The notes below the pieces were generated by a model. The model was not told where the DNA came from and did no database searches. It worked only from the letters and a program-made list of their open reading frames with translations. Made by a program: the position numbers and the translations under genes. Positions 42,570 through 44,342 of a stretch of 64,000 bases of DNA are shown piece by piece; positions within the stretch are counted from its first letter, which is position 1; every line of letters begins with the position of its first letter. Origin of the DNA: Sandaracinus amylolyticus (GTDB lineage: Bacteria > Myxococcota_A > Polyangia > Polyangiales > Sandaracinaceae); the NCBI RefSeq assembly GCF_000737325.1, contig NZ_CP011125.1:3348001-3412000 (forward strand). The letters are read 5' to 3'.

Positions 42570-44342
42570 ATGCACTTCGGGCTCGAGCGAGGCGCGAGGA
42601 TCGCACGCAAGTACCGCGTCGTGCGGGAGCTCGGGCGAGGCGCGTTCGGCGTCGTGTTCGAGGCCGAGAACGAGGCGACCGAGCGACGCGTCGCGATCAA
42701 GCTGCTCGCCGCGCCCGAGCACGACGAGGCCGCGACGGCGCGCTTCCTCCGCGAGGCGCGCCACACCGCGCGCCTGGTGCATCCGAACGTCGTCACGGTG
42801 CTCGACGCGGATCGCGATCTCGATCGTGGCTGGCTCTATCTCGTGCAGGAGCTCCTCGTCGGCGAGGACCTGATGACGTGCCTGCGACGTCGAGGGCCCC
42901 TGCCGCCGGCGCAAGCCGCGCAGCTGCTCGTGCCGGTGATGGACGCGCTCTCTGCGGCGCACGGCGCGGGGCTCGTGCATCGCGACGTGAAGCCGTCGAA
43001 CATCCATCTCGCGTCGCGCGGTCGCGGCTCGGACGAGATCGTGCCGAAGCTGATCGACTTCGGGCTCACGAAGTCGTTCGAGCAGGACGACGGCGACTAC
43101 ACCGCGACCGGTCTCGTCGTCGGCACGCCGAGCCACATGTCGCCCGAGCAGCTCGTCGCGCCCAAGGAGGTCGGCCCGCAGACCGACGTCTGGTCGATGG
43201 GCGTCGTCTGGTACCAGGCGCTCTCGGGACGTCTTCCGTTCGAGGGAGATCGCGTCGCGGACGTCGCGTTCCGGATCGTCGAAGGGCGTCCTCCTCCGCT
43301 CGCGAGCCGCGCGCCTTCCGCGCCTTCGGCGCTCGCCGCGGCGATCGATCGCGCGCTGCTGCGCGAGCGCGACCGTCGCTGGGCGACGATGGACGAGCTG
43401 CGCGACGCGATCGAGCGCGCGCTGCGCGCTTGGAACCCGATCGCCCCGTCGATCGACGTGCCGCTCGACGAGCTCGAGCCCGAGCCGTTCGACGAGGCCG
43501 AGCCCACGATGTTCGCGCGTCGCGGCGCGCGCATCCAAGCCGCGATCGCCGCGCGCGCCGGTCGCCTGCGGCTCGGGCTCGTCGCGAGCAAGGAGCGCGA
43601 CCTCTCGCCGCAGACCGCGCTCGCGCTCGGCGCGCACCTCGGCGTCGAGATCACGCTGCTGCGCCACGCGAGCCACGCGGATCTGGTCGAGGCGCTCGAC
43701 GTGGGCGAGCTCGATCTCGCCTGGCTCTCGCCGGTCGCGTTCGCCCGCGCGCACCGGGACGACATCGCGCGCGGTCTCGCGTGCGTGGAGCTCGACGACG
43801 CGGACGACTACGCAAGCGTGCTCGTCGGGGATCGCGCGCGCGCCGCGCGTCTCGAGCGGTTCGCGCTGACGGGGACGCGCGCGGCGTGGGTCGATCGCTG
43901 GTCCGCCGCGGGCTATGCGATGCCGCGCGTCGTGCTGCGCGCAGCGGGCATCGAGCCCGAGCAGACGTTCCTCGAGCAGCGCTTCGTCGGCTCGTACGAC
44001 GCCGCGCTCGCGGCGCTGCGCGAGGGCAGCGCGGACGTCGCCGGCATGTACGCGTACCTCGATCGCAGCGGGCGCATCGCGTCGCACGGCGCTGCGGGCG
44101 ATCGCTCGCTGGTCGTGCTCGCGACGAGCGACCCGATTCCGTCCGACGTCGTCGCGGCGCGCGTCGATCTCGACGATCGCGAAGTGCGCGCGCTGATCGC
44201 GCGCCTCGAGCACGCGCGGCTCGCGCCTTCGGATCCACTGCGCGAAGCGACCGGCGCGTCCTCGTTCGCGACGTTCCGCGCCGCGCGCTACGAGGCGCTC
44301 GCGAGCGCGCTCGAGGGCGACGAATCGATGACGGGCAGCTAG
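42570..44342 (+). CDS. Ser/Thr protein kinase fused to a PhnD-like substrate-binding domain
   Basis: Residues 15-300 are a complete eukaryotic-type kinase: Gly loop G22-R-G24-A-F-G27, Lys44, Glu62, HRDVKPSN (137-144) and DFG (163-165). After a short acidic linker the C-terminal ~240 residues resemble the periplasmic phosphonate-binding PhnD family ([49 protein letters not shown]). No membrane helix separates them and there is no signal peptide, so the binding domain would be cytosolic and may sense a small ligand to control the kinase. ATG 42570 follows a -10-like TATCCT. hemE begins 11 bp after the stop. Confidence 0.85.

Follow-up and report, generated by a model that had tools for sequence, protein, structure and literature searches.

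Does the gene in which a Ser/Thr kinase is joined to a PhnD-like ligand-binding domain encode a direct sensor of a small molecule, as the original prediction proposed? Ser/Thr kinases are very numerous in myxobacterial genomes, and for most of them the signal is not known; the genome of the host studied here, Sandaracinus amylolyticus, holds at least 95 strong matches to such kinases. The gene lies in the window, i.e. the whole stretch of 64,000 nucleotides that was analysed. Based on its domains, their conservation and a rebuilt binding pocket, we predict, with more confidence than doubt, a cytosolic Ser/Thr kinase controlled by a ligand. The relevant features are as follows:

42570 to 44342, plus strand: gene for a Ser/Thr kinase with a PF12974 (Phosphonate-bd/PhnD-type) domain, 590 aa, translating without stops
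42612 to 43439, plus strand: Hanks-type Ser/Thr kinase domain, residues 15-290 (Pfam Pkinase, 155 bits, and motifs)
43440 to 43571, plus strand: acidic, proline-containing linker without a membrane helix, residues about 291-334 (sequence and hydropathy scan)
43572 to 44324, plus strand: PhnD/PtxB-family domain with a type-II periplasmic-binding-protein (PBP) fold, predicted to act as a sensor in the cytosol, residues about 335-585 (domain and structure-database matches)
43899 to 43916, plus strand: ligand loop WSAAGY, residues 444-449, replacing the xSTSGY of phosphite/phosphonate binders (alignments and PtxB pocket residues, PMC5700983)
44354 to 45376, plus strand: hemE (uroporphyrinogen decarboxylase), 11 nt past the kinase stop (TIGR01464, 388 bits, above the NCBIfam cutoff)
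45378 to 46791, plus strand: hemG-type protoporphyrinogen oxidase, start approximate (TIGR00562, 285 bits, cutoff 98)

Domain architecture and predicted location

The Pkinase match covers residues 15-234 (cutoff 31.7; Pfam hmmscan), and the Hanks motifs are complete, with GRGAFGVV at 22 (GxGxFGxV), AIK at 42 (including K44), HRDVKPSN at 137 (HRDxxPSN; HRD at 137-139), DFG at 163-165 and SPE at 191-193. By this motif set, the protein belongs to the Hanks-type bacterial Ser/Thr kinases. It is of the RD type and carries Thr residues within the activation segment, which would fit control via autophosphorylation. A PASTA-domain kinase of the PknB/Stk1 kind was considered and rejected, as NF033483 covers the kinase half only (227 against a cutoff of 450) and there is no transmembrane (TM) helix.

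The C-terminal half matches Phosphonate-bd at residues 352-546 with 102-104 bits, above the Pfam gathering cutoff of 27, and is thereby assigned to PF12974 (Pfam hmmscan). Its TIGR01098 score of 90-93 bits is below the cutoff of 112, and it falls far below the cutoff of the PhnD equivalog TIGR03431. Compared with solved structures, this part alone retrieves PtxB (5o2j) at 6e-15, and a profile of the clade described below retrieves PtxB at 1e-27, AioX and ArrX at about 1e-18 and, lower down, HtxB at 1e-13 and E. coli PhnD (3p7i) at 6e-11. The best solved relatives are thus the phosphite-binding PtxB proteins. The original prediction of an intact kinase joined to a domain of this fold is borne out by both halves; the result that it named as refuting, a C-terminal region with no match to PBP folds, did not arise.

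It had also described the fusion as free of a membrane helix and a signal peptide. The hydropathy scan agrees: segments of 19 residues stay below the TM threshold throughout this protein and throughout the other soluble fusions, and no signal peptide is predicted in the 590 residues. By this simple scan, the protein is predicted to reside in the cytosol. An exported partner of an ABC transporter was rejected, given the N-terminal kinase, the missing signal and TM segments, and neighbours that comprise an amine-oxidase-like gene, hemE and hemG. An in-frame ATG also lies upstream at 42516; the start shared with the ortholog is the ATG at 42570. Repeats within the gene are chance matches of GC-rich DNA, and a promoter/terminator scan found nothing.

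Two further observations concern PBPs of other architectures. Free-standing PhnD-type proteins of the host (L108:4154-4963 (-), L109:4597-5442 (-) and L110:4422-5207 (+)) start at or near the domain and have no signal peptide, and judging from such sequences, cytosolic PhnD-type proteins seem widespread in this group. Seven other loci (L030, L034, L036, L048, L049, L050 and L056) encode proteins of about 600 aa in which a PF12974-like domain is followed by several C-terminal membrane helices, resembling a binding protein and a permease joined in a single polypeptide.

Genomic neighbourhood

Upstream of the fusion gene lies a divergent flavin amine-oxidase-like gene. Downstream, the adjacency to hemE and hemG described in the original prediction is real, and co-transcription of the three genes in one operon is plausible from their arrangement; a conserved association with heme genes did not emerge. 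Neither hemE nor hemG was found near the fusions outside the genus, within about 4-8 kb a side and less on short contigs, or within the examined flanks of the host's second fusion copy. The absence outside the genus makes the heme connection weak. A part in heme regulation, in which the kinase would sense a heme precursor and phosphorylate HemE or HemG, could account for the narrow gap between kinase stop and hemE, the shared strand of both heme genes and the retention of this block in the congener G002. However, the lack of heme genes at the other soluble fusions speaks against it, as do the pockets of this PBP family, which enclose very small ligands, and we regard such a part as very improbable.

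Conservation and distribution of the fusion

The ortholog in G002 is 92% identical and sits in a syntenic block of about 11 kb; another genome of this genus, available as a 6-Mb draft, gave no match. Comparison of the two orthologs gave dN/dS ratios (NG86) of 0.14 (kinase), 0.11 (linker) and 0.19 (PBP). Purifying selection acts on both domains, and the value for the PBP indicates that this domain is not decaying. A second, diverged fusion copy is present in the host and in the congener.

The original prediction had suggested a search for the same fusion in other Myxococcota, and soluble fusions in one reading frame were indeed found in two families of the order, f1 (G000, G002, G004, G005, G008) and f7 (G015, G028, G033, G038). 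In G022, the kinase and PBP halves are adjacent in different frames, which may reflect a sequencing error or two genes. Given the syntenic ortholog, the purifying selection on both domains and the related fusions in two families, the fusion is not an accident.

Across 282 surveyed genomes of the phylum, scores of 314-346 bits set the PBP clade apart from all remaining sequences, which reached 203 bits or less, and the clade was limited to families f1, f5 and f7. The f5 members are free-standing PBPs with the same pocket, and in most of them the chain begins right at the domain. The flanks read around them, about 5-7 kb, contained no kinase of the group in question, so the domain can function outside such a fusion. 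In some free PBPs, long N-terminal extensions were disregarded, being stop-to-stop frames in GC-rich DNA without a Pfam domain. Viral contigs yielded no relatives, and plasmids only ordinary phnD with 25-28% identity among the matches listed.

At three f5 loci (L113, L114 and L115), the free-standing WSAAGY protein adjoins a conserved gene set. Its first member encodes a Cys-containing protein (MAKPW..GGTGFDLED) with no Pfam match; the others presumably encode two membrane proteins, one short and one resembling spermidine synthase.

Separate clades of soluble and membrane-spanning fusions

Other families of the same order possess kinase-PBP fusions that span the membrane. We compared five of them, from f4, f8 and f11 (L037:124-2244 (+), L047:2313-4898 (+), L051, L052 and L057). 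In the PBP tree, the soluble fusions and the free-standing f5 forms constitute one clade of 18 with a support of 100/100, far from the PBPs of the membrane-spanning fusions. The kinase tree likewise places soluble and membrane-spanning fusions on separate sides, with 99/96 each. That the kinases of the soluble fusions group as their PBPs do indicates that the two halves travelled together. Uniting soluble and membrane-spanning fusions in one group was rejected for the PBP (AU test, p 0.011) and, by a narrow margin, for the kinase (p 0.048), these p values being somewhat optimistic because the groups were named after the first tree had been seen.

The borders of the soluble group are less sharp in detail. 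One kinase without a PBP (L136:1366-3813 (+)) falls inside it near the f7 fusions and has a long, helical-repeat-looking C-terminal part in place of the PBP. A strict soluble-only kinase group was not rejected (AU p 0.32), nor was a PBP clade of fused members only, with f5 outside (AU p 0.22). Kinase-only relatives also turned up in a scan of genome contigs; in the two nearest (L001 and L002), the place of the PBP is taken by a tail rich in proline and alanine that includes a hydrophobic stretch.

In these trees, the membrane-spanning architecture of the other families arose separately. The protein studied here has no TM helix between its domains and does not share the ancestry of both halves with these fusions; it belongs to the soluble kinase-PBP clade, which we define by WSAAGY, solubility and an N-terminal kinase.

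A rebuilt binding pocket

Phosphite in PtxB is held by Y55, Y100, S130, T131, S132 and H160, and Y208 caps the site (PMC5700983). In the alignment, the equivalents are, in the same order, H369, Y414, S445, A446, A447, Y476 and D526, i.e. the phosphite-binding S-T-S...H of Te_PtxB has become S-A-A...Y. The pocket was read from alignments only, as a single-sequence AlphaFold2 model of the PBP domain reached a pLDDT of 36. Judged by the STS loop and the His, the domain lies outside the phosphonate/phosphite-binding proteins proper. The label PhnD-like is thus correct for the fold and misleading for the binding chemistry, since the counterparts of PtxB T131, S132 and H160 are Ala, Ala and Tyr.

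The altered loop is itself conserved. W444, S445, A446 and G448 are invariant in all 18 clade members, at only about 38% sequence identity, and A447 is nearly so; the Trp preceding the Ser occurs in 18/18 members versus 0/31 other sequences compared. The seven PtxB-contact columns have a mean conservation of 0.90 versus 0.55 domain-wide, the former value being reached by 5e-5 of random column sets, which were not matched for burial, so that this fraction serves as a guide. Such conservation despite the changed chemistry suggests that the pocket was remodelled and then maintained, and not lost. Among other signal-less PBPs of the order, SAA or SCA is frequent, yet the His is mostly retained.

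These data bear on the possibility that the PBP domain has ceased to bind a ligand and instead mediates docking to other proteins or recruits substrates for the kinase. Such a role would agree with the loss of the T, S and H side chains that bind the oxyanion and with the variability of position 476 (Y, F, H or N within the clade). In contrast, conservation within the domain peaks at the cleft, four loop residues are invariant among these diverged sequences, and a docking module would not obviously be expected to keep the old ligand loop. We therefore consider docking unlikely.

Cytosolic sensing of an oxyanion such as phosphate, a phosphonate or an arsenic or sulfur oxyanion, by backbone amides together with S445 and Y414, appears less likely still. 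Phosphite, hypophosphite and phosphonate are the ligands of the closest relatives with solved structures, the related AioX and ArrX sense arsenic oxyanions, both S445 and Y414 are kept, and HtxB binds hypophosphite although its positions for S130 and H160 are changed as well (PMC5700983). However, the domain retains one of the three loop hydroxyls and lacks the His, whereas the S-T/S-S loop and the His were kept in 12/12 PBPs fused to TM kinases or transporters that we compared. With the oxyanion-binding side chains replaced by Ala, Ala and Tyr next to an invariant Trp, the predicted ligand is most likely not phosphonate, phosphite or phosphate. The loss of these side chains, the aromatic wall and the acidic cap would favour a neutral or amine-bearing compound, perhaps an uncharged, aromatic or amine-bearing small metabolite.

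Proposed mechanism

The protein is best read as a kinase that senses a small molecule directly, and we infer both ligand binding and kinase control. Type-II PBPs close around a hinge upon ligand binding (PMC5700983). By analogy, a small intracellular molecule would be bound between the two lobes of the PhnD/PtxB-fold domain and the hinge would close; opening and closing of the lobes could then be passed on via the acidic linker and modulate the Ser/Thr kinase at the N-terminus, probably its autophosphorylation. As to a wider evolutionary scenario, we consider it an even call that the clade represents a line of cytosolic kinases with a built-in sensor, derived from a phosphonate-family PBP that moved inside the cell, acquired a new aromatic pocket and came to switch the kinase directly in response to a metabolite, with a parallel TM version in neighbouring families. 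Given that the presumed sensor is compact and soluble, has a well-studied fold and is fused to its kinase, one recombinant protein could serve for tests of ligand, structure and switching.

Comparison with known systems

Cytosolic PBP-fold sensors and kinases served by periplasmic PBPs are already known kinds. The effector domains of LysR-type regulators have a type-II PBP fold and sense metabolites in the cytosol, so that cytosolic sensing by such folds is not unprecedented; they are, however, linked to a DNA-binding domain and belong to a separate sequence family. TtrS-type sensory PBPs of two-component systems are periplasmic and work with membrane histidine kinases. Like these, AioX and ArrX use a PhnD-family domain for signalling rather than transport, again in the periplasm and with membrane histidine kinases, whereas our protein combines the domain with a Ser/Thr kinase in a single cytosolic polypeptide. 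In Corynebacterium glutamicum, a PBP has been proposed to control a Ser/Thr kinase through GlnH-GlnX-PknG (PMC9769921), a system with a periplasmic PBP, a separate relaying membrane protein and no fusion. The literature searched, which comprised open-licence papers only, contained no soluble Ser/Thr kinase with a PhnD-family sensor, although automatic domain databases probably list the architecture already.

The TM fusions of the same order likewise combine an N-terminal Hanks kinase with a C-terminal PF12974 domain, but they have a TM helix between the halves, an outside PBP and an S-T/S-S...H pocket, none of which is found in the soluble fusion. With PhnD, PtxB and HtxB (PF12974/TIGR01098), the C-terminal domain shares the fold, the length, the position of the ligand loop and the capping Asp (D205 in E. 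coli PhnD). In contrast to these binders, it lacks a signal peptide, is fused to a kinase, has no adjacent transporter genes, and carries SAA-Y and an invariant Trp in place of the STS-H oxyanion site. This points to a recruitment of PhnD-family domains as cytosolic sensors, in which a change of the pocket accompanies the move.
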